Shown piece by piece: positions 51,100 through 63,729 of a stretch of DNA of 64,000 bases. Origin of the DNA: Agrobacterium tumefaciens (GTDB taxonomy: Bacteria; Pseudomonadota; Alphaproteobacteria; Rhizobiales; Rhizobiaceae); contig NZ_CP039905.1 in the NCBI RefSeq assembly GCF_005221385.1, forward strand, positions 124,001 to 188,000, given 5' to 3'. The notes below the pieces were generated by a model that saw nothing but the letters and a program-made list of their open reading frames with translations, was not told where the DNA came from and searched no databases. The translations under genes were made by a program, and so were the position numbers. Each line of letters opens with the position of its first letter. The first letter of the stretch is position 1.

Positions 51100-51624
51100 C
51101 TATTTCGTGTTCCTGATCATTCGCCGCAGCACGTCGTCGCGACGCCAGAAGTGATGCCACAGAGCAGCGAGGGCGTGAGTGGTCGCAACGACCAGAAGCA
51201 TCCAGCTCAGCAGGCTGTGCAGGGAAGCGATGCGGAACGTCACGTACATAGCGATCGTGCCTGTGATCGGCAGTGCGAGCAATAGGCCGTAGAGCACCGC
51301 ATGAGTGACCCCTGCGATCATGCGCTCAAGCACCGACATGCCCTGGATCGGAGGTGGTCGGCCATATGTGAAGCGCAGAATAAGTTGACTGAGCGCCAGC
51401 GCCATAATCAGCCATCCGCTCCAGGCGTGAACCTGATGCAGGAAAAGGTCGAAGGGTTTAGGTTTCAAGAAAAGGTGCGCCATGTGCGTGCGTTGGATCG
51501 CCCAGGCCGTGGGGACCTGGATGATACACAGGATAAGGACCATCCAGTGCATCAAGCGCTGGTAGATCGAGAATGCGCCGGCCGAACGGTGCCGGCGTAT
51601 CCAAATGGACAGCCGCCACGTCAA
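51100..51624 (-). CDS. Cytochrome b561-type membrane protein
   Basis: A 174-residue protein with four membrane helices and heme-ligand His residues: YQRLMHWMVLILCI, FLHQVHAWSGWLIM, GVTHAVLYGLLLAL and TTHALAALWHHFWR. This is the bacterial cytochrome b561 (CybB-like) pattern, moving electrons between quinol and periplasmic partners. It starts at TTG 51624, overlapping the phosphorylase stop as TTGA, with GAGG upstream. It is the last gene of the ATPase-nucleotide operon. Confidence 0.9.
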   Translation of the reverse strand: MTWRLSIWIRRHRSAGAFSIYQRLMHWMVLILCIIQVPTAWAIQRTHMAHLFLKPKPFDLFLHQVHAWSGWLIMALALSQLILRFTYGRPPPIQGMSVLERMIAGVTHAVLYGLLLALPITGTIAMYVTFRIASLHSLLSWMLLVVATTHALAALWHHFWRRDDVLRRMIRNTK

Positions 51625-53153
51625 CTTTCGACCTCGAAAAGGTCGCCTGCATGCGCGGCATAGTCCAGTGCGTAGCCAAGTTCACCAGCCGTCTCGGCGT
51701 GAACGTGCAAAAGCGGCTGGCCGCTGGCGATCTCGTCGCCGAGGCGGACGGCCATTTGGACGCCTGCCGCCTTCGACTCCGGCGCTCCGGCGAGCTTGGC
51801 GAGTCGGGCGATTTTGCGATTGTTGATATGGACGACGCGGCCGGCGCGCGACGCGATCAACGGATGAACCTGTGCGGCCTTCGGTGGCTCACGAAGTCCG
51901 CCTTGCGCCTCGCAGATCGCCATGAACTTCGACCAGGCACGACCGTCGACCAAGGTCGCCAACGCAAGCGCTTCACCTTTCCCCTTTGCGGCCTTTCCAC
52001 CGATCTCAAGCGCGGCGCCCGCCAACAGGATCGCGCGGCGTCGCAGATCGTCCGGCGCATCCGGCGCGTTTTGAAGAACCGCCAGGACGTCGAAGGCTTC
52101 TAGACCTGGGCCGATGCCGCGCCCGACGGGTTGCGAACCGTCGGTCTGGACGCAGGTCAGGGCCAGATCGAAACGGGCAGCGACGGCGCTGAGGCGACTG
52201 GCGAGCTGATCGGCGGCCGCTTCGCTGCGCACCTTGGCGGTTGCCCCAACCGGGATGTCGATAACCACATGCGTCGAGCCAGCGGCGATTTTTTTTGAAA
52301 GGACGGAAGCGACAAGCTGTCCCTCGGTATCCACGTCGAGTTCGCGTTCGATCCGGACGAAAATGTCGTCGGCGGGGCTGAGATGCACCGCCCCGCCCCA
52401 GGCGATGCATCCGCCTTCTGCTTCCACGACGCGTCGAAGGGTTTCGATGCTGAGGTCGACAGGGGCAAGCGTTTCCATTGTGTCGGCGGTGCCGGCTGGC
52501 GAGGTAATCGCGCGCGAAGACGTCTTCGGCATGACAAGGCCATTGGCGGCCACGATCGCGACGACGATCGGCGTGGTTCGATTGCCCGGCAACCCGCCGA
52601 CACAGTGCTTGTCCACAACGATCGGAGCATTCCAGCTCATCCGGTCGCCGACATCGACCATGGCGCGCGTGAGGTCAACAGTCTCGCTCTCGTCGAGAGG
52701 AAGCGCGGCACTGGCGGTCAGAAAGGCGGCGAGATGGACCTCGGTATAGCGGCCTGCGACCACGTCGCTCACGATTTCGGCAAAGGCGTGCGCGTCGAGG
52801 CGATTGCCATATATGCGACGGCGCACGCTCGTCAGAGACTCCACGGCCGGAGGATGGGTCACCGTCACATTGTCATTCTCGCTAACGCCGAGGATCTGCC
52901 AGGCTGTTTCAGAAAGACCGACTTCATCCTGAGCGAGCAATGCATCTCCTTCGACCTGAAAGAGCGTTGCCTGTACCTGTCTCGCGCCGATCGAGACGAG
53001 GACCTGGGTGCGCGCGGACAGACCCTCCGAGCGGCAGACATGGCAATCGGTGCGCATCACCACCACGGCCTGGTGCTGAGTGTGCAGCCGCAGGCGCCGC
53101 ACGCGTAGCGTCGGCTGAGAAGGAACCTCGGGTTCGACGTTGTTGATCGTCAT
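51621..53153 (-). CDS. AMP phosphorylase / thymidine-phosphorylase-like enzyme
   Basis: A 510-residue member of the nucleoside phosphorylase II family. The signature KTSSRAITSPAGTADTME and the phosphate/ribose site DKHCVGGLPGNRTTP are present. An extra N-terminal domain of about 85 residues (RRLRLHTQHQAVVVMRTDCH to VTVTHPP) is the hallmark of archaeal-type AMP phosphorylases, which convert AMP and phosphate to adenine and ribose-1,5-bisphosphate. Common annotation is thymidine phosphorylase. ATGA overlaps join it to the nuclease gene upstream and a TTGA overlap joins it to the cytochrome downstream, so it acts in the same operon. Confidence 0.9.
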   Translation of the reverse strand: MTINNVEPEVPSQPTLRVRRLRLHTQHQAVVVMRTDCHVCRSEGLSARTQVLVSIGARQVQATLFQVEGDALLAQDEVGLSETAWQILGVSENDNVTVTHPPAVESLTSVRRRIYGNRLDAHAFAEIVSDVVAGRYTEVHLAAFLTASAALPLDESETVDLTRAMVDVGDRMSWNAPIVVDKHCVGGLPGNRTTPIVVAIVAANGLVMPKTSSRAITSPAGTADTMETLAPVDLSIETLRRVVEAEGGCIAWGGAVHLSPADDIFVRIERELDVDTEGQLVASVLSKKIAAGSTHVVIDIPVGATAKVRSEAAADQLASRLSAVAARFDLALTCVQTDGSQPVGRGIGPGLEAFDVLAVLQNAPDAPDDLRRRAILLAGAALEIGGKAAKGKGEALALATLVDGRAWSKFMAICEAQGGLREPPKAAQVHPLIASRAGRVVHINNRKIARLAKLAGAPESKAAGVQMAVRLGDEIASGQPLLHVHAETAGELGYALDYAAHAGDLFEVES

Positions 53154-54508
53154 AGGTCGAAAGCCTGATTCTGGCGTGAGACGACTGCGTTCCATCCAAG
53201 CTCGCGGTCGATCCGCACGCGCAGCGCTTCGGAGGCATCGTCTTCACCATGCACGATGAACACGCGGGACGGCGGCCGACGGAAGCCGGACAGCCAGCGC
53301 ATCAGCTCGTTTGCGTCGGCATGCGCCGACAGCATGGACAGGTCCGCGACCTCTGCCCGAACCGGGATCCACTGGCCATGGATTTTGATCTCGCGGGAGC
53401 CCTGCATCATAGCGCGGCCCCGCGTTCCGGCTGCCTGAAAACCCGAGAAGAGAATGGTGTTGCGGCTGTCGGGGGCAAACGCCTTGAGATGGTGCAGGAC
53501 CCGTCCACCGGTGGCCATGCCGCTCGCCGAAATAACGATCTTCGGGTAGGCGCTTGCGGTGATCGCCTTGGAACCCTCAACGTCGCGCGTGTAGGTGGCG
53601 ATCGAGCAAATCGCATTGCATTCCTGCGGGCTCAGCCGGTGATCGGAACGATGCGCATGCAGCAAATCCGTTGCGTCGATCGCCATGGGGCTGTCGAGAT
53701 AGATGGGAATCTTTCCGAGACGGCCATTCATTCTCAGCTTCCAGAGATGGTAGAGAAGTGATTGGGCTCGCCCAACCGCGAAGGCGGGGATCACAACGGT
53801 TCCGCCCCTGGCGGTCGTGCGCTCAATGACGCTTCCCAAAGCCTCTGTGGGATCGACCTGATCGTGGATGCGATTTCCGTAGGTCGACTCGATTACGACG
53901 TAGTCGGCGTTTTCGACAGCCGTGGGGTCGGGAAGAACGGGGTCATCGTAGCGGCCGAGATCGCCCGAGAAAGCGACTCGACGCCCTGCCCATTCGATTT
54001 CCGCGATAGCCGCGCCCAAGATATGCCCGGCATGGCGGAAGGTCAGTGTCGCATTGCCTGGAAGGTGAATGGGCTTGTCGAAAGGTTCGGGCGAGAAGAA
54101 TTCGAGGGAGTGCTCGGCGTCGCGGATGCCGTAGAGCGCAAGCGCAGGCTTGTGCTTCGAAAAGCCCTTTCGATTGGCGTATTCGGCATCCTTTTCCTGG
54201 AGGTGGCCGCTGTCCTTCAGGATCAGCTCGGCAACGTCGCGCGTCGCCTCGGTAGAGTAGATTCGGCCGCGGAAGCCATCTCGAACGAGCTTGGGCAAAT
54301 AGCCGGAATGGTCGAGGTGGGCATGCGTCAGGACGACGGCGTCGATGCTCGATGGCGTAACCGGAAGTGCTGCCCAGTTGAGTTCGCGCAGGTTCTTCAG
54401 GCCCTGGAACAGGCCGCAATCGATCAGGATGCGCTTGTCGCCATTGGTGAGGAGATGTTTCGAGCCGGTGACGGTTCCCGCACCGCCAAGCGAAGTTAGT
54501 GTGAGCAT
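53150..54508 (-). CDS. Beta-CASP metallo-beta-lactamase-fold nuclease
   Basis: A 452-residue protein with the zinc site THAHLDHSGYLPKLV, later metal ligands in FRHAGHILGAAIAEI and FSGDLGRYDDPVL, the beta-CASP insert, and a C-terminal RMMBL motif (LSAHADANELMRWL, FIVHGEDDASEAL). Relatives (CPSF73/YSH1-like, RNase J-like) cut or degrade RNA. GAGGG precedes the ATG at 54508. It follows the phosphoketolase-like gene by seven bases and overlaps the phosphorylase start by four. In this setting it may release nucleotides from RNA for the neighbouring enzymes (inference). Confidence 0.92.
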   Translation of the reverse strand: MLTLTSLGGAGTVTGSKHLLTNGDKRILIDCGLFQGLKNLRELNWAALPVTPSSIDAVVLTHAHLDHSGYLPKLVRDGFRGRIYSTEATRDVAELILKDSGHLQEKDAEYANRKGFSKHKPALALYGIRDAEHSLEFFSPEPFDKPIHLPGNATLTFRHAGHILGAAIAEIEWAGRRVAFSGDLGRYDDPVLPDPTAVENADYVVIESTYGNRIHDQVDPTEALGSVIERTTARGGTVVIPAFAVGRAQSLLYHLWKLRMNGRLGKIPIYLDSPMAIDATDLLHAHRSDHRLSPQECNAICSIATYTRDVEGSKAITASAYPKIVISASGMATGGRVLHHLKAFAPDSRNTILFSGFQAAGTRGRAMMQGSREIKIHGQWIPVRAEVADLSMLSAHADANELMRWLSGFRRPPSRVFIVHGEDDASEALRVRIDRELGWNAVVSRQNQAFDL

Positions 54509-54515
54509 GTTGCCC

Positions 54516-56885
54516 TCAATCTTGTGCTTTGGACAGATCGGCAGGAGCGCCACATCCATCGATTGCGTTGCGTTCGGCCAGGGTGAGCAGTTCATCGCGC
54601 GACCAGTCCGAGAGCCGTGCGGATGCGTCGACAAGGTGCGCCCATGAGCAGCGGTTGGCGAAAAGCATGCCGGAAACATCCAGCGTGCCGCCACGACTGA
54701 TATATCCATGCGCCGCGGTCCGTTTCGGGCCGCCGTCTAGCCGTCGAAGCAGGCCGACCATCGGTTCTGGGCGGGTGTGAGTGACGATAAGGCGGGGCAG
54801 ATCGGGTGGGAAAAGGCTTGCAAGCTGGTCATCGCGCGCTGTGAATTCGGCCTCGAGCGGATCGCGCGGCGCCCGAAAGCGTCCAGGCTCCGAAATCGCC
54901 GTGACGACGACCCGTCGACCATGCGCTTTCAGCCGGTGGGCGGCCTTGAGAGCTTCTTCGAGTTGATAGGCGCCGATCGTGACGAGCTGGAGTGCCGCTC
55001 CATCCGGGTCGCCGTCGATATGAGCCGCACCTATGTTGACGAAGCGCTCGGCCGCCTCGGCGTCGAGACGGTGAGGCATGTCGCGCTTGGACACGATAAG
55101 GCAAGCTACTTGGCCGCGCCCGCGATAGACCGACCGCAGCGCCGCGGCAGCGCTGTTCGCATCGACGGGAAACAGCACGCGGGACGTATCCGACATCTCG
55201 CCCAACAGGGCCTCGCCAATCGTCGGATCCTGGTGTGACTGTTCGTTCTTTGCGTTCTCCCAGGTGTGCGATGTGACGACGAGCGGCACGGAGATCCAGC
55301 CCGGCGTTTTGCCCGCTTCCCGTTGGTGGCGGGAGAAGATGATCTCCTGGCGCAGGCCGCCTAGCATCTTCATCGCGAAGGCTTCGTAACTGACGATCAG
55401 ATTGATGCCGCCCTTGTTGGCGAGCGCCGCACCGGCCACGGCTTCCTCATTCAGGGCCGTGATAACCGCGCCGTCGACGGCATCGGCAACGCCAGGCTCC
55501 GACTGGTTTACGCGGTGGCGAAGCCTGTCGAGCGTTGCGCCCATATGGTTCGAGCGGAGTTCATCGGGATTGCCGACCCGCGGACGAAGGCCGGGATTGG
55601 CATCGACGACCCGGACAAACCAGCGATCTATTGCATGCATGGCGCAGTCGGAGGGGTAACCTTCCTGGGACCAGTCAGGTTCGGGCAGGTGCGGCGCTGC
55701 GGGATTACGGGATGCCAGAGGATGCTTGCTTTCGGGAACGCGGCCCTGCCTCTCATGAATGGCAATCTCGGACACGGCGTCATCAATGTCGCCCGGCGGC
55801 ACGAATAGAGCCCTTGCAGCGTCGTTGAAGGCTTGACGCGCCGCTTCGTCTCGCGACGGGTTGCCCGTCAGAGGAAGATTGTGCGCGGCATTTGTGCCCG
55901 CTCCGGGGAAGCCGAATCCTTTGACAGTCTCGGCGATGACATAGGGAATGGGTGCGGGATAGCGGCGGCTGGGATCGGTCGCGAAGCGCGTGAGCTGCTC
56001 TTCCGCTGAGAGGATGGCCCAAGCGAAGGCGGCGGGGTCCCGGCCATCGATCCTCATCGGCGCGAATCCGTTGAGGCTGAGATGATCGGCAAACCAATCT
56101 GCCCCGCCTTGCTGCGCGATCTGGACGCGTTCCTCGATACGGCGGCCGTTCATGATCATCACTGGAACAACGAAGCCGGAATCCTCCGAGCGCCACCAGC
56201 GCGGCGTCCAGTCCGATCCGCGCTGTTCCTCAAACGCGCCATCGCTGAGAAAGGCGACGAGGCTTTCGCCTGTCAGTGGCGCATGGACGTACTGCACTTC
56301 CGAGAACCCGAGATAGCCGCCCTCCGAGATCGCACCGGCGGTGGTTGGGCCGGCGTGGCTGCCGATCGGCACGCCCGGCCGGCCGCTCGCGTCGATAGCG
56401 TAGGAGTAGAAATCGGCTGCGAGTTGAGACAGCCCTTTCTCGCTGCGATCATAGCGCCCGAGCTGAGCTTGCGAAACGTCGCCTGTCAGCGCGTTGACTG
56501 CATCGATCGCCGCCACGCAATGCCCCTGACCCATAAGCCACGATCGGGTTGTTGCCGAAATCGCGTTGGCAACCAGATAGCCGACGAAAGCCGGGGCCAT
56601 GTTGAGCGAACCGCCGGTATGGCCCTCCGGAACGGTTTTGAAGGCGTCGGCTGGCAGAGGAGCGCCGGACAAATCGACACGCCTCGCATAGGTCATGTGG
56701 ACGATGGTCCACATGGCAGCCGAGGTCAGGCGGTCGGCCGCTGCGAGCAGTCGGTAGAGCCGATCAGGTTCGATCCGTCCCGACATGGCCAGCGTTTGAA
56801 TGCGCTCGATGGTTTCGTCGCTATGTCGGATCTGGCCATAGCCGTCGCGCCATGCCTTGAAGAGTTCGGGAGTCGCTGCGGCCAT
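54516..56885 (-). CDS. Phosphoketolase-family thiamine-diphosphate enzyme
   Basis: A 789-residue protein matching the phosphoketolase/transketolase superfamily: EGHTGGSLNMAPAFVGYLVA in the N-terminal region, HAGPTTAGAISEGGYLGFSE and LVAFLSDGAFEEQRG (cofactor binding), TVKGFGFPGAGTNAAHNLPL, and MGATLDRLRHRVNQ before the pyrimidine-binding domain. Phosphoketolases split xylulose-5- or fructose-6-phosphate with phosphate into acetyl phosphate plus glyceraldehyde-3- or erythrose-4-phosphate. Divergent members with this gene context are sometimes named xylulose-5-phosphate 3-epimerase, so the exact reaction is uncertain. It lies 50 bp after the PRPP-synthetase-like gene in the same operon. Confidence 0.85.
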   Translation of the reverse strand: MAAATPELFKAWRDGYGQIRHSDETIERIQTLAMSGRIEPDRLYRLLAAADRLTSAAMWTIVHMTYARRVDLSGAPLPADAFKTVPEGHTGGSLNMAPAFVGYLVANAISATTRSWLMGQGHCVAAIDAVNALTGDVSQAQLGRYDRSEKGLSQLAADFYSYAIDASGRPGVPIGSHAGPTTAGAISEGGYLGFSEVQYVHAPLTGESLVAFLSDGAFEEQRGSDWTPRWWRSEDSGFVVPVMIMNGRRIEERVQIAQQGGADWFADHLSLNGFAPMRIDGRDPAAFAWAILSAEEQLTRFATDPSRRYPAPIPYVIAETVKGFGFPGAGTNAAHNLPLTGNPSRDEAARQAFNDAARALFVPPGDIDDAVSEIAIHERQGRVPESKHPLASRNPAAPHLPEPDWSQEGYPSDCAMHAIDRWFVRVVDANPGLRPRVGNPDELRSNHMGATLDRLRHRVNQSEPGVADAVDGAVITALNEEAVAGAALANKGGINLIVSYEAFAMKMLGGLRQEIIFSRHQREAGKTPGWISVPLVVTSHTWENAKNEQSHQDPTIGEALLGEMSDTSRVLFPVDANSAAAALRSVYRGRGQVACLIVSKRDMPHRLDAEAAERFVNIGAAHIDGDPDGAALQLVTIGAYQLEEALKAAHRLKAHGRRVVVTAISEPGRFRAPRDPLEAEFTARDDQLASLFPPDLPRLIVTHTRPEPMVGLLRRLDGGPKRTAAHGYISRGGTLDVSGMLFANRCSWAHLVDASARLSDWSRDELLTLAERNAIDGCGAPADLSKAQD

Positions 56886-56936
56886 GCTTTCGGGATCCTT
56901 TTTTGACTGCTTGTTGAGTGCGATCTATCGACAGCG

Positions 56937-57968
56937 CTACCGATGTCCCCCCAACCATGGCGGTGGATCGCTGGCGGGGAATGAGTCGATGCCCGCGCGC
57001 TCCACTGCATCGAGCGGCTCCGGAGGACGGCGGTGGCGGATCTGATCCGACCCTGCCGCCGTGTCCGTCCGGAGATGCGCGGCAATAAGCGGCGCAAGCT
57101 CAATACGGTTGCTGGCGTGGACAACGGAGTCGGTCGAAACGATGCGACCGCAGAGCGGGGCAAGCTGTTGATACGAATCGCCCGCGAAGATGCCATGCAC
57201 GACAGCGACGTCAGGCGGAGCCAGACCTTGCAGTCGCAACTTCCTCGCCGCTTCGATAAGAGTATGGCCTGATGAGGCGATGTCATCCACGAGTACAGGC
57301 TGACGATCGTGCCAGGCGGAGAGATCGGGAAGTTCGATTTCGACGTCGCGATCGCCGTGTCGGACTTTCCTCAGGACCGCATGTGGCGCATCGATGCGCT
57401 TCGCGATGGCCGAGACCCACTGCTCGCTTTCCTCATCAGGGCCGATAAGCAGTGAGGCCTTGACCTCCGACCCTATCCAGTCGGCAAGGAGCGGGGCCGC
57501 ATGAAGCGTCGCTGTCGGAATGGAATAGATCGCCGAAAGTGTTGGATGGCGATGCAAGTGCGGGTCGACGGTAATCAGGCGATCGAAGGTTGCCGATACG
57601 AGTCTTGCGAATGTGCGGGACGTGACCGCCTCGCCCGGTCGAAAGCGCCGATCTTGCCGCATATAGGCGAGGTACGGGGCGATCAGCGTTACCTCTCTGG
57701 CGCCCAGTGATCGTACGGCGTCGGCGGCGAAGACCAGCCGCAGAAAGCCTTCATCGGGGTGAGACAGGGTGCTGACCAAAATGACCGCTTTGTCGGTCAC
57801 GTCGCACAGGATGCGGAGATAGCTTTCGCCGTCGGGGAAATTCCGGGTTTCGAGGTTGCCGAGCGGCCAACCGCCCTCGCTGGCGAGGCGCTGGGCAAAG
57901 GCGTCGTTTCCCGGACGGGGAAGGATCACATGGCTCGAAGCGTGGTTCGTCGTATCCATGTGGGTCAT
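56937..57968 (-). CDS. prs: Ribose-phosphate pyrophosphokinase-like protein
   Basis: A 343-residue PRPP-synthetase family protein. Visible are the N-terminal NFPDGESYLRI motif, AVILVSTLSHPDEGFLRL, APYLAYMRQDRRFRPGEAVT, the catalytic loop region HAVLRKVRHGDRDVE and the PRPP loop LVDDIASSGHTLIEAARKL. It is longer than housekeeping Prs, with a Pro-rich C-terminal extension, and more like the archaeal/plasmid-type branch. It overlaps the copper ATPase stop as ATGA. In this operon it may link ribose-5-phosphate, PRPP and AMP pools rather than serve biosynthesis. Confidence 0.9.
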   Translation of the reverse strand: MTHMDTTNHASSHVILPRPGNDAFAQRLASEGGWPLGNLETRNFPDGESYLRILCDVTDKAVILVSTLSHPDEGFLRLVFAADAVRSLGAREVTLIAPYLAYMRQDRRFRPGEAVTSRTFARLVSATFDRLITVDPHLHRHPTLSAIYSIPTATLHAAPLLADWIGSEVKASLLIGPDEESEQWVSAIAKRIDAPHAVLRKVRHGDRDVEIELPDLSAWHDRQPVLVDDIASSGHTLIEAARKLRLQGLAPPDVAVVHGIFAGDSYQQLAPLCGRIVSTDSVVHASNRIELAPLIAAHLRTDTAAGSDQIRHRRPPEPLDAVERAGIDSFPASDPPPWLGGHR

Positions 57969-60073
57969 CCGTTCCTGCGGTAGCGGCGCAGGAACTGCGC
58001 GTTGATGGCGACGATGATGGTGCTGGCCGACATGAAGACCGCAGCTACGGCCGGCGTCATCAGGAAGCCGGTCCCGAAGGTGATGCCGGCGGCCATGGGG
58101 ATCGCCACGGTATTGTAGGCAGTCGCCCAGATCAGATTCTGGACCATCTTACGGTAGGTCGCGCGCGAGAGACCGAGAATGGCCGCCACATCGCGCGGAT
58201 CGCTTTTGACGAGGACCACATCGGCGGATTCCACGGCGACATCCGTACCAGCGCCGATGGCGACGCCGAGATCGGCCTGGACAAGAGCTGGCGCATCGTT
58301 GACGCCATCGCCCACCATCGCCACCGAAAGGCCACGCGATTGCAATTCCTTGATCTTGTCCGACTTCTGATCGGGAAGCACCTCGGCGAAATATTCGGAG
58401 ATGCCGAGTTCCCTGGATACCGATTCCGCAACGCCCTTCGCATCGCCCGTCAGCATCACCGACTTTATGCCAAGGCGATTCAGTTCGGCGATGGCTTCTC
58501 TCGATTCGCTACGCACGATGTCGGCAAGCGCGAAGAGCGCGCGCGGCGCGCCATCGCGGACAAGTACAACCACCGTCTTGCCGTCTGCTTCCAGCTCCTT
58601 GAGCTTCGGATGATCGATCGGGCTGCCTTGCCGAGCGAGATGGCCGGGGCTGACGATCCGAAGCTCCTCGCCGTCAACCTTGGCGGTAATGCCTTCGCCG
58701 GTGATATTGCTGACCTCGGTGGCCTTGGGGATCGCGATGCCGCGCTTCTTGGCTTCAGCGACGATGCCATGTGCAATTGGGTGTTCCGACTGACTCTCCG
58801 CTGCGGCGGCGAACGCCAATTCCTGGCTTTCGTCGCCAGCGGACAGAAGGACAATATCGCTGACGCCGAAACGTCCTTCCGTCAGCGTCCCTGTCTTGTC
58901 GAAGACCGTTGCATCAAGATTGCGCGCGCGCTCGAAAGCGGCCCGGTCGCGGATCAACAGACCGTTGCTCGCGCTCAGCGATGTGCTGACGGCCACCACC
59001 AGGGGCACGGCGAGGCCGAGTGCATGCGGGCAGGCCACGACCATGACCGTCACCATGCGCTCCAGAGCGAACTCCAGGGGCGATCCGAGAACGATCCACC
59101 AGACGAAAAGCGTCCCGAAGCCGACGACGAGGGCGATATAGGTGAGCCAGGCGGCTGCCCGGTTGGCGAGGTCCTGGGTCTTGGAACGGGTCGCCTGCGC
59201 CTTCTTTACGAGGTCGATGACCTGAGACAGATAGGTCGCGTCCCCCGTCGCCGTCACCTTGATCGTCACGGCATTGGCGCCGTTGATCGCCCCGCCGATG
59301 GCTGGCGCGCCGACGGTCTTGGAAACAGGCCGCGATTCGCCTGTCAGCATCGCCTCGTTGAAGGCGGACGATCCCTCGATGATCTCGCCATCGACCGGCA
59401 CCTTCGCGCCCGGCCGGACGATGACGCGGTCGCCGGGCTGGAGGGCGGAGATCGCTACTTCATGCGTCGAGCCGTCCGCATCGATCCGCGTCGCGCTGTC
59501 TGGAAGCAGGCGCACCAGTTCCTCCAGCGCGCGGGAAGCCCCCATGACGGAACGCATCTCCACCCAGTGGCCGAGCAGCATGATGGCGATGAGCGTCACC
59601 AATTCCCAATAGAAGGCTTCGCCGGGGAACCCGAAGGTGACCGCCGCCGAGAAGAAATAGGCGGCCGAGATCGCGAGCGCGATCAGCGTCATCATGCCGG
59701 GCTGGCCCTTGCGCAGCTCCGAGGTGAAGCCGGTCAGGAACGGCCAGCCGCCATAGACGTAGGCGATGGTCGAGAGGACGAAGAGCACGAGACCGTCGCC
59801 CGGAAACGACAATAGCTCGGTCAGGCCGAGCCAATGGCGGATCATCGGAGACAGAAGCAGGACGGGCGGCGTGAGAATGAGCGAAACCCAGAAGCGGCGG
59901 CGAAAGTCGGCGACCATCTCCGCATGATCGTGTCCGCCGTGCCCGGTATGTTCGGCATGGGTTGAGCCGGCTGCCGAGACGATGCTTGCGGCCGCGTGGT
60001 CGTGGTGCGGACCGTTGGCAGCCGTCCGATGATGTGCGTGGTGGTTGCCGTGTTGGCTATGCGATGAGCTCAT
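57965..60073 (-). CDS. copB: CPH-type P1B copper-exporting ATPase (CopB-like)
   Basis: A 702-residue P-type ATPase. The N-terminus is His-rich ([20 protein letters not shown]) with no Cys HMA domain. The transmembrane metal site is [14 protein letters not shown], the CPH signature of P1B-3 pumps (Cu, possibly Ag). The actuator TGES ([10 protein letters not shown]), phosphorylated Asp in [12 protein letters not shown] motif SEHPIAHG and hinge [14 protein letters not shown] are intact. The start at 60073 is preceded by AAGGAC and skips an upstream frame without ATPase homology. It heads the six-gene operon, with a Fnr/FixK box about 130 bp upstream. Confidence 0.93.
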
Positions 60074-60202
60074 TCGATGTTGTCCTTCACTGGCCATTGG
60101 CGATAACTCGGAATGCAGGCCATTCTTGTTCCGTGACACTGGCCAGTTCTCGGCAGGGCAGAATCTTCGGTGCAAAGGTCTTCGGTCCGACGTTCCGAAT
60201 CT

Positions 60203-60216
60203 TTGATCCAGATTAA
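60203..60216 (-). promoter_or_regulatory. Fnr/FixK-type box upstream of the copper ATPase operon
   Basis: TTGAT-CCAG-ATTAA on the plus strand matches the TTGAT-N4-ATCAA consensus at nine of ten positions. It lies about 130 bp before the ATPase start and downstream of the copper chaperone gene. Confidence 0.65.
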
Positions 60217-60305: not shown

Positions 60306-60515
60306 TCACCCCGATGATTCAGGAGTGTCTGCCGGGTAACCTGCTTCTTCGAGAACGGCGACAAGGGCTGCCCTGTCGGCGCTCGTCTCGATCAGGACCT
60401 CGCGTTTGTCAGGATCAGTCTCGATCCGGGCCATCCCGTCGACGCTCAAAAGCGCCTTGGTCACTGATTTTGCGCAGCCGCCGCATGTCATGTTCGGGAC
60501 CTGGAAGCGAAGCAT
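60306..60515 (-). CDS. copZ: CopZ-like copper chaperone (HMA domain)
   Basis: A 69-residue single heavy-metal-associated domain. It has the metal motif VPNMTCGGCAKSVTKAL and ends with a typical strand/helix (ALVAVLEEAGYPAD). It binds Cu(I) in the cytoplasm and delivers it to exporters or regulators. GAGGAGG precedes the ATG. It has its own MerR-type promoter upstream (60576-60546) and precedes the ATPase on the same strand by 230 bp. Confidence 0.93.
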   Translation of the reverse strand: MLRFQVPNMTCGGCAKSVTKALLSVDGMARIETDPDKREVLIETSADRAALVAVLEEAGYPADTPESSG

Positions 60516-62166: not shown

Positions 62167-63099
62167 CTATGTGGTCCGCCTTCGATCATCTGATCGCGAA
62201 GAGTTTTGATCGAGCCACGCCTTCGCGATCTCCACATCCACTCCCGCGACCTCGATCAACTTATCCGGATTGAGGATTCGAAGACGCCGGTATTGAAATT
62301 GAACGATTCCCTCCTTCCGCAGGGAACTGAGGACACGGTTGACATGAACGAATGTCAGGCCCGTCGCATCGCCGATCTGTTCTTGAGTTAGGGGAAGCGC
62401 CATCTCTTCGATGCGGTTGCCGGGCCATTGCGCCCGATATCGCGTGAACAGCTCCAGCAGGAGATGGGCGACGCGCTCTCGTGCCGAGCGACGCCCGATA
62501 CTCGTCAGGTGATCGAAGGCAAGATCGCGTTCGCGCGCTACAGATTGCGCGAGTCTCAAGCCGATTTCCGGGTCTTCCCGCAGGCGCGATTTCAGAACGG
62601 ACATCGGAACGACGGAAACGACTACGTCCGTCAGGGCCTGCGCGCCGACGTTTGAGGGCATGTGACCGGACGAGAGCACCCCCAGCACTGCGCCTGGCAA
62701 TGCGAAATGCACGATCTGTCGCCGGCCATCGGGAAGCAAGGAATATACCGCTATCCAACCGTCAAGAAGGTTGAACAAAGAACCGGTAGTGGACCCAATA
62801 CCGAGGATTTCGTTGCCTGCGTCGAATTTTCGGTCGCCGGTCCTGAACCCCCGAATGAGGCGGTTTGCATCGATCGGAGGAGACACGGCGCCAAGCGAAG
62901 CAGACGTATGGGTGCCGTGACTTGAGAGCGTCAAAGCCTTCGATGATTGAGGAACAATGGCATTTTCGGCGTTTGAAGCGCCGTCTGCTGGGGGGTTGTT
63001 TGGCAGCAAGCTGCTCCAAGCGCCGTTGATCATGGCCAAATTGGCGCTTTGAAATGATCGGGCGGGCTCGGGGGAGAAAAAAGAGCGATCCAAGTTCAT
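62167..63099 (-). CDS. Crp/Fnr-family transcription regulator
   Basis: A 310-residue regulator. About 90 N-terminal residues show no domain. A cyclic-nucleotide-binding-type sensor follows (LFNLLDGWIAVYSLLPDGRR, VHFALPGAVLGVL) and a Crp winged helix (LPLTQEQIGDATGLTFVHVN, RVLSSLRKEGIVQFQYRRL). It lacks the Cys cluster of FNR, so it does not sense oxygen by an iron-sulfur centre. The recognition helix (VHVNRVLSSLR) differs from the FNR/FixK type, so it may not bind the FixK boxes nearby. GGAGG precedes the ATG at 63099. Its targets probably include this region, which is inference. Confidence 0.88.
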   Translation of the reverse strand: MNLDRSFFSPEPARSFQSANLAMINGAWSSLLPNNPPADGASNAENAIVPQSSKALTLSSHGTHTSASLGAVSPPIDANRLIRGFRTGDRKFDAGNEILGIGSTTGSLFNLLDGWIAVYSLLPDGRRQIVHFALPGAVLGVLSSGHMPSNVGAQALTDVVVSVVPMSVLKSRLREDPEIGLRLAQSVARERDLAFDHLTSIGRRSARERVAHLLLELFTRYRAQWPGNRIEEMALPLTQEQIGDATGLTFVHVNRVLSSLRKEGIVQFQYRRLRILNPDKLIEVAGVDVEIAKAWLDQNSSRSDDRRRTT

Positions 63100-63283
63100 G
63101 TTGCACCTCCGGGGCGCGGAGCCCGTCTCGGTGGCTATCCGAACAGGCAATCAATCCTGACGTGAGGACCTGTGCGCCGACGCAGCTTTGCGCCGGGGAT
63201 CAGGTGGGCGCGAACACGACAAATCTCCAGGAACCAGAGTGTTGATCCAATCTGGCGACAGGGTTTTAGCCGCGGAACGCCGC

Positions 63284-63715: not shown

Positions 63716-63729
63716 TTGATTCAGATCAA
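63716..63729 (-). promoter_or_regulatory. Perfect Fnr/FixK box upstream of the Cys-rich protein gene
   Basis: TTGAT-TCAG-ATCAA fits the Fnr/FixK consensus at all ten positions, starting 91 bases before the 63625 ATG. It could also serve a gene on the plus strand, but none is seen. Confidence 0.8.

Follow-up and report, generated by a model that had tools for sequence, protein, structure and literature searches.

Within the window, a stretch of 64,000 nucleotides from Agrobacterium tumefaciens (positions 124,001 to 188,000 of contig NZ_CP039905.1, assembly GCF_005221385.1) that belongs to a contig (C3) of 260 kb in a genome of 5.5 Mb, six adjacent genes code for a copper-type P1B ATPase, a homologue of phosphoribosyl pyrophosphate (PRPP) synthetase (Prs-like), a phosphoketolase-like enzyme (XFPL), a metallo-beta-lactamase nuclease (MBL), a member of the thymidine phosphorylase family (TP) and a cytochrome b561-type protein (Table 1). 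Four of these six genes, those of Prs-like, XFPL, MBL and TP, constitute a widely conserved unit. On balance, and by a narrow preference, this PRS-XFPL-MBL-TP core is read here as a low-oxygen nucleotide-catabolism cassette carried by a mobile copper-resistance plasmid island.

Table 1. Coordinates of the operon genes and of nearby features, as positions in the window.
Feature	Position	Strand	Basis
Cytochrome b561-type membrane protein, sixth gene	51100..51624	-	PF01292 76 bits; TTG start overlaps TP stop
TP, annotated thymidine phosphorylase family; predicted nucleoside monophosphate (AMP-type) phosphorylase	51621..53153	-	NF003338, TIGR02645, structure match, PhnN fusions of homologues
MBL, beta-CASP metallo-beta-lactamase nuclease, predicted RNase	53150..54508	-	Beta-Casp 120 bits, RMMBL 69 bits
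XFPL, divergent phosphoketolase-like thiamine diphosphate (ThDP) enzyme, annotated 'xylulose 5-phosphate 3-epimerase'	54516..56885	-	XFP 134 bits, XFP_N 45 bits
Prs-like, PRPP-synthetase homologue, pyrophosphate loop GPDEES; start 57968 or maybe 57959	56937..57968	-	NF005537 423 bits
Heavy-metal P-type ATPase of the P1B (CopB-like) type with CPH motif, likely a copper exporter	57965..60097	-	TIGR01511 586 bits
Fnr/FixK-type box TTAATCTGGATCAA before operon	60203..60216	-	Motif scan
Small CopZ-like protein with a heavy-metal-associated domain, before the pump	60306..60515	-	MTCGGC motif; annotated in identical plasmid copy
Crp/Fnr (FixK-like) regulator near operon, candidate regulator	62167..63150	-	HTH_Crp_2 and cNMP_binding; FixK, FnrL models below cut-off

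Operon layout and the conserved core

The preliminary description of this DNA, made from the sequence alone, had reported six genes on one strand joined by overlaps or short gaps, and this holds: all six minus-strand open reading frames (ORFs) were found at the coordinates of Table 1, with families as named, by ORF check and profile matches. The junctions comprise three four-base overlaps, namely ATGA between the ATPase and Prs-like (if the latter starts at 57968, its start being annotated at 57959 in an identical plasmid copy), ATGA between MBL and TP and TTGA between TP and cytochrome b561, and two gaps, of 51 bases between Prs-like and XFPL and of 7 bases between XFPL and MBL. The ATPase ORF is open from 60364, with an ATG at 60097, and the identical plasmid copy is annotated with a start at 59917.

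A profile search with XFPL provided 80 named loci, whose titles cover Alpha-, Beta- and Gammaproteobacteria. Being the top 80 among 533 confirmed, these loci lean towards close relatives; clustering at 95% XFPL identity sorts them into 57 groups, called clusters below. Neighbours were called at E limits of 1e-8 and 1e-6, at which distant ones may be missed, and contig ends cut some loci. Searched with the window genes by tblastn, the 80 loci contain MBL in 71 cases, Prs-like in 53, TP in 52, the P1B ATPase in 29 and cytochrome b561 in 3. The complete core is present in 47 loci, corresponding to 32 clusters, across many genera and in varied surroundings, and occurs in two orders, PRS-XFPL-MBL-TP (32 loci) and XFPL-MBL-TP-PRS (15 loci). 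Conservation of gene order, which the preliminary description had put forward for a check over all six genes, is thus observed for these four; it does not extend to the pump, which directly precedes Prs-like in 12 of the 80 loci (10 clusters, 69-87% identity), nor to cytochrome b561, an accessory gene found after TP in 3 loci. In the same line, the operon cannot be called fused to the pump, as was initially done: the pump merely adjoins it and, being found beside Prs-like in some loci only, is a recurrent but optional neighbour.

Upstream of the cassette in L015 (18605-24392, Rhizobium rosettiformans) and in L045 (Pseudaminobacter) lie genes for a universal stress protein and an adenylate kinase together with an arginine deiminase operon, a group that is an ATP-sparing gene set. 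In addition, a gene of about 390-430 residues is found near the cassette in 18 of the 80 loci, as in L037 (1251-2420).

Copies of the 9.1 kb block that share 99.8-100% identity were found on plasmids from Agrobacterium tumefaciens, from Ciceribacter and from two strains of Rhizobium, the Agrobacterium copy being surrounded by copper and mercury resistance genes; such near-identity on plasmids of several genera points to a recently moved island. On the Agrobacterium plasmid (NZ_CP039909.1), a Tn3-family mercury-resistance region occurs twice (66579-78248 and 94770-106439), flanking a repA/parA stretch beside the island. A truncated island is seen on a plasmid of Shinella sumterensis (L017, 8001-10270), where cytochrome b561, TP and the last 72 MBL codons are retained before the match stops, TP being there without a partner. 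A role in anti-phage defence was discarded, PADLOC having given just a weak match (Csx19 at 18 bits).

TP, Prs-like and the proposed ribose-1,5-bisphosphate step

TP scores above the cut-offs of NF003338 (673 against 434 bits) and TIGR02645 (580 against 434.6), and remains below those of the thymidine and pyrimidine-nucleoside phosphorylase models NF004490 (176 bits), TIGR02643 (128), TIGR02644 (171) and NF004747 (123). Its closest solved structure is the Thermococcus AMP phosphorylase (4ga5/4ga6, 310 bits), pyrimidine-nucleoside and thymidine phosphorylases reaching 108 bits or less. Besides, Ile or Val is found in 53 of 53 sequences at the position that we take to correspond to the thymine-binding Arg (R171 in the E. 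coli enzyme).

The genomic partners of TP were followed in 398 genomes, host included, sampled evenly across the phylum. This sample holds 47 TP genes over the cut-off, in 44 genomes, a further gene in G313 (428 bits, internal stop in the match) being under the cut-off and excluded. Prs-like was detected at E 1e-60 in 41 genomes, 40 of these over the cut-off. The two proteins occur together in 40 genomes, TP only in four and Prs-like only in one (phi 0.93), the latter being G440, where no TP lies in the 11 kb looked at. More precisely, 41 of the 43 Prs-like genes are on the same contig and strand as TP, the distance being at most 200 bp for 38 and mostly less than 100 bp; seen from the other side, 41 of the 47 TP genes have Prs-like on the same contig within 4.4 kb, and four are fusions with PhnN. 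The TP gene of G295 sits on a short contig end, with its Prs-like on another contig.

The fusions are found in the four TP-only genomes, each of which encodes a longer protein made of an N-terminal PhnN part, scoring above the TIGR02322 cut-off of 156 (181, 186, 164 and 169 bits), and a C-terminal TP part. Among the homologues of one of them, the 120 listed of 4704 have 648-702 residues and a phosphorylase domain; several are named PhnN, and one source names the protein PhnN / thymidine phosphorylase. No open paper joining PhnN with thymidine phosphorylase was found, an earlier mention elsewhere being possible. In the three loci looked at (L182, 3470-6430; L189, 7159-10154; L190, 7125-10091), the fusion is directly preceded by nadC, whose product uses PRPP, an arrangement that might represent a nucleotide-to-PRPP-to-NAD route. 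A TRAP or tripartite transporter gene is also located near the nadC/fusion pair in these three loci.

Since TP is paired with Prs-like or fused to PhnN, an enzyme reported to convert ribose-1,5-bisphosphate (R15P) to PRPP by phosphorylation (PMC9700705), TP is very probably an R15P-forming nucleoside monophosphate (NMP) phosphorylase. A thymidine-specific phosphorylase was rejected because of the scores on the models, the lack of the thymine-binding Arg and the fusions with PhnN; the Thermococcus AMP phosphorylase was itself once misannotated as a thymidine phosphorylase, as stated in PMC8376864.

As for the partner, Prs-like exceeds the cut-offs of NF005537 (322 bits), a curated subfamily named ribose-phosphate diphosphokinase, and of TIGR01251 (191 against 113 bits). 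In the four canonical Prs compared, the PDxG[G/A] loop, which presumably holds pyrophosphate, reads SPDIGG (E. coli), SPDVGG (host chromosomal Prs), APDKGA and APDRGA (two archaeal structures). In Prs-like, this loop is PDxE[S/A], with Glu for Gly, in 79 of 79 distinct core segments from all sets, as well as in 52 of 52 sequences of the cassette set (window included) and 31 of 31 of the NF005537 set (in which the window figures twice). The motifs that we take to be adenine-binding (RQD), catalytic (KxR) and the ribose 5-phosphate (R5P) loop (DDI..SG.T) have their RQD, K, R, DDI, S, G and T kept in 52 of 52 members of the cassette set, wider Prs-like members showing variants such as DDV and STA. 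These residues suggest that Prs-like would bind an adenine nucleotide and R5P, and not the ordinary pyrophosphate group, and that it is probably an R15P-handling enzyme rather than an ordinary PRPP synthetase.

Other enzymes able to act on R15P were sought in 25 genomes. PhnN is found in 15 of them, including the host, where it lies on contig C1, the chromosome, and is a candidate for the missing R15P step; the earlier remark that no R15P kinase is seen is therefore right for the window and does not hold for the host genome. No R15P isomerase over the cut-off was found in any of the 25 genomes, 11 of which have sub-cut-off matches of about 73-182 bits, so that an archaeal-style R15P isomerase was set aside as outlet. 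Seven of the 25 (L039, L045, L049, L052, L060, L095 and L110), which are shotgun records and may be incomplete, have TP and Prs-like and neither PhnN nor R15P isomerase over the cut-off, thereby leaving Prs-like as the sole R15P candidate, of those sought, in these genomes. The alternative considered in the preliminary description, in which the Prs-like protein itself serves the missing step, gains support from the rewritten loop and from the near-obligate pairing with TP. Going further, it is conceivable, if doubtful, that the TP-linked Prs-like family is no PRPP synthetase and instead a new Prs-fold enzyme shuttling one phosphate between C1 of R15P and ADP or AMP (R15P + ADP or AMP <-> R5P + ATP or ADP), operating together with an NMP phosphorylase, an RNase and a phosphoketolase-like enzyme in a bacterial RNA-to-ATP route when respiration fails.

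XFPL, MBL, low oxygen and copper

XFPL matches the Pfam families XFP and XFP_N and aligns with ten solved XFP sequences at 95-108 bits, nine of these being covered over most of their length. Taking H64, H97, H142, H320, E479, N549, H553 and K605 as the phosphoketolase catalytic residues (most positions being counted on 8io6/3ai7), seven of these positions are kept in 81 of 81 sequences, and H320 in 80 of 81. Acetate kinase is present in 12 of the 13 XFPL genomes of the sample versus 202 of the 398 overall (Fisher p 0.003), and in 22 of 24 genomes reached through XFPL loci, which may overlap the sample. At the loci, its gene lies directly upstream of XFPL in 12 of 80 (8 of 57 clusters) and somewhere in 33, three members of this acetate kinase cluster being confirmed by Pfam and the other 30 assigned by clustering. 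Owing to this link with acetate kinase, the product of XFPL would likely be acetyl phosphate.

The nearest structure to MBL is the Thermus RNase TTHA0252 (263 bits), followed by the type VII CRISPR nuclease Cas14 (216 bits). MBL has MBL, beta-CASP and RMMBL domains and, among the motifs looked at, HxHxDH and further metal ligands are kept, in agreement with the RNase-type nuclease proposed at first; its substrate is accordingly predicted to be RNA. On the Cas14 model NF045584, MBL scores 394 bits for a cut-off of 800. These scores on the model and on solved chains indicate that the cassette nuclease family is related to Cas14.

With regard to oxygen, the Fnr-type box announced in front of the operon is present: TTAATCTGGATCAA, at 60203-60216, differs by one mismatch from TTGATNNNNATCAA and precedes the ATG at 60097 by some 106 bases. 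Matches of the TTGAT-N4-ATCAA type (at most two mismatches) number 34 in the window against 19.6 expected, a figure reached by 0 of 100 shuffles, and this window-wide excess does not single out the box at 60203-60216. Among the relatives, 72 of the 80 loci have a usable upstream stretch, and 14 of these 72 contain a box with at most one mismatch to TTGAYNNNNRTCAA before the operon, versus 2.8% of shuffles; compared with the background of 10.7% among the other genes of these loci (75 of 702), the excess is modest (Fisher p 0.03). The Crp/Fnr protein encoded near the operon is a candidate regulator. A perfect Fnr-type box, TTGATTCAGATCAA, occurs at 63716-63729, about 0.6 kb upstream of the gene of this regulator and before a small hypothetical ORF.

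In open-paper searches, no assayed activity was found for the cassette, and those pairing thymidine phosphorylase with phosphoketolase or ribose-phosphate pyrophosphokinase yielded, as relevant items, two Bradyrhizobium lists and one Pseudomonas list. As listed there, the TP-Prs-MBL operon bll3117-bll3116-bll3115 of Bradyrhizobium diazoefficiens is reduced at 0.5% oxygen when fixK2 is deleted (PMC9104804), its products being also listed in a micro-oxia comparison (PMC6515984), and PA3613 and PA3614 of Pseudomonas aeruginosa are given as Anr-activated (PMC8575079). The low-oxygen link first suggested from the box thereby finds support in published FixK2 and Anr control of genes of the same names, matched by name and order. 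A PA3613 mutant is recorded without attenuation in a published mouse screen (PMC4676916). The lxa locus of Burkholderia was dismissed as a published parallel, the cassette genes not being named in the part of the source consulted.

With regard to copper, the pump scores well above the TIGR01511 cut-off of 397 bits and displays CPH at position 445 of the ORF, DKTGT and a His-rich N-terminus, features of what is likely a copper-exporting CopB-type ATPase. In G362 (L194, 4698-6227 and 6990-9293), a P1B ATPase gene is located about 0.8 kb from a second TP copy, on the same strand. Besides, genes for type II glyceraldehyde-3-phosphate dehydrogenase (GAPDH), presumably the archaeal type, are found near the cassette in 9 of the 80 loci and on two copper islands (NZ_CP039909.1, 133741-134781; L016, 13169-14224).

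Proposed route, alternatives and known parallels

From the gene order, families, residues, co-occurrence, fusions and absences observed, we infer the reactions, their direction and energetic logic, the regulation in the host and the part played by copper as follows. The MBL beta-CASP nuclease would free NMPs from RNA, and TP would then convert NMP and inorganic phosphate to nucleobase and R15P. Prs-like would act at the C1 phosphate, in the simplest form by R15P + ADP (or AMP) -> R5P + ATP (or ADP), after which ordinary isomerases would convert R5P to a ketopentose phosphate that XFPL may split into acetyl phosphate and triose phosphate. Most of the relatives tested could go on to form ATP with acetate kinase, while this host might obtain at most R5P or PRPP (via chromosomal PhnN) plus acetyl phosphate. 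Fnr/FixK-type control would turn the cassette on when oxygen is short, and the CPH pump would be a co-regulated neighbour acting against Cu(I) stress.

Several observations weigh against this catabolic cassette. On the side of TP, the score on the AMP_phos equivalog model TIGR03327 is below the cut-off (475 versus 535 bits), and the function of TP is therefore claimed by context, not by membership; the original assignment to the AMP phosphorylase type stands on the nearest structure, the replaced Arg and the PhnN fusions, and is not borne out by this model. In addition, the second TP copy of G362 is neither fused nor next to a Prs-like gene, and TP with cytochrome b561 occurs without the remaining cassette on two Shinella plasmids (one examined). 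On the side of XFPL, the best score on a curated phosphoketolase model is 135 bits against 962, the lowest cut-off being 777, so that none is reached. Moreover, XFPL has SDGA in place of GDGE (Gly to Ser, Glu to Ala) and is also altered at R442, Q546, H548 and G550 (Bifidobacterium numbering), all of which are possible contacts of thiamine pyrophosphate or of the donor. XFPL occurs without TP in 9 of its 13 genomes and is therefore not tied to R15P chemistry; its link with TP across genomes is weak (4 of 13 XFPL genomes versus 40 of 385 others, Fisher p 0.044). As for the fate of acetyl phosphate, acetate kinase was found neither in the host genome, the sole XFPL genome of the sample in this case, nor in the Chelativorans and Bosea genomes carrying the cassette, and no stand-alone phosphotransacetylase (Pta) was found in the host, both PF01515 matches being C-terminal domains of malic enzymes, so that Pta was rejected as an exit. 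With neither enzyme, no known exit from acetyl phosphate to ATP is left in the host; acetyl phosphate as a source of ATP, as initially drawn, is thus backed in relatives by the link between XFPL and acetate kinase and does not carry over to an ATP yield in the host. Finally, the phosphoketolase and acetate kinase of Bradyrhizobium are described as a separate FixK2 operon (PMC9104804).

Part of the evidence can be read in the opposite, anabolic direction, which we consider rather improbable. Prs-like would then make R15P from R5P and ATP, at the cost of ADP and not AMP, and TP would run in reverse, from R15P and free base to NMP, amounting to a PRPP-free salvage that would spare one high-energy phosphate under ATP shortage. 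The gene pair and the loop change also fit this direction, and phosphorolysis equilibria, which generally favour nucleotide synthesis, count for it; nevertheless, the nuclease of RNase type, the acetyl-phosphate-type enzyme and the acetate kinase to which the pair is linked suggest breakdown, and the PhnN fusions place TP beside an enzyme that drains R15P to PRPP. The subfamily name of NF005537 and the RQD, KxR and DDI..SG.T motifs conserved in the cassette set would also suit an ordinary PRPP synthetase whose altered loop is harmless; in that case TP, Prs and PhnN would provide a general NMP-to-PRPP salvage, with XFPL and MBL as co-regulated neighbours only. We hold this to be unlikely in view of the Gly to Glu change in all 79 segments, where the few canonical Prs compared retain Gly, and of the seven genomes with TP and Prs-like and neither PhnN nor R15P isomerase over the cut-off.

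The surroundings of the operon lend themselves to two further explanations. In a copper-tolerant bypass, Cu(I) would block ordinary Prs and GAPDH, and the island would supply an alternative Prs-like, type II GAPDH and phosphoketolase for pentose and PRPP metabolism. In favour of such a role in copper tolerance, copper is reported to inhibit Prs in Staphylococcus aureus, GapA being a copper target as well (PMC10249872). The bypass would also agree with the pump placed before Prs-like in 12 loci, with the reverse placement on a plasmid of Martelella, where the pump immediately follows Prs-like and TP, Prs-like and the copper ATPase adjoin with no XFPL listed, with the P1B ATPase near TP in G182 and near the second TP of G362, and with the type II GAPDH genes of the nine loci and two copper islands. 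Since plain PRPP synthesis is hard to reconcile with the rewritten pyrophosphate loop, a P1B ATPase is found in just 1 of 30 TP loci (a weak test, with 1.5 kb flanks) and the sources consulted, in which no control by copper was sought, describe control by FixK2 or Anr, we deem this bypass quite unlikely. The near-identical 9.1 kb block shared by several plasmids, amid copper and mercury genes, might finally suggest chance hitchhikers on a heavy-metal island, with no joint function; as the core recurs in 47 of 80 loci of many genera, with a near-obligate co-occurrence of TP and Prs-like, this is highly improbable for the core, and such a reading is confined to the pump and cytochrome b561.

About one in nine of the sampled genomes (44 of 398) carries a thymidine phosphorylase family gene marked by context as an R15P enzyme. 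Should the catabolic cassette be confirmed, two common annotations, thymidine phosphorylase and PRPP synthetase, would be wrong, R15P would be more widespread among bacteria than is now assumed, and a nucleotide-to-energy route would be part of some low-oxygen regulons.

Compared with known enzymes, Prs-like shares with canonical Prs the fold family and, in the cassette set, the RQD, KxR and DDI..SG.T motifs, but has DPHLHR or DAHLHR where the canonical enzyme has DLHAxQ. Similarly, XFPL belongs to the fold family of canonical phosphoketolase (XFP/XPK) and retains its His, Glu, Asn and Lys at the catalytic positions, whereas GHGG and QDHNGF of the canonical enzyme are replaced by GHCV and NAKNEQ. 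At the level of operons, bll3117-bll3115 of Bradyrhizobium comprises three genes named as in the cassette in one predicted operon, a match by name and order and not by sequence, and differs in having no XFPL or pump as listed. PA3613-PA3614, annotated as a phosphoketolase and an MBL protein, resembles the XFPL-MBL pair of Pseudomonas alcaligenes (L075 and L086), with an orthology drawn from names; L075 and L086 differ from the cassette in that no TP or Prs-like neighbour was found there.

A close parallel in terms of chemistry is the archaeal NMP shunt, or pentose bisphosphate pathway, formed in Thermococcus kodakarensis by NMP phosphorylase, R15P isomerase and form III RuBisCO. Its phosphorylase belongs to the same superfamily as TP, the alignment between TP and the Thermococcus enzyme spanning most of the N-terminal region, with the SSRAITS and GG(V/L)PGN(K/R)T segments in common, and R15P is likewise the proposed node of the cassette. 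The two systems differ in what surrounds this node: TP is accompanied by Prs-like or fused to PhnN, without R15P isomerase over the cut-off in the 25 genomes, and the cassette is linked to a phosphoketolase-like enzyme rather than to RuBisCO, which was not sought.

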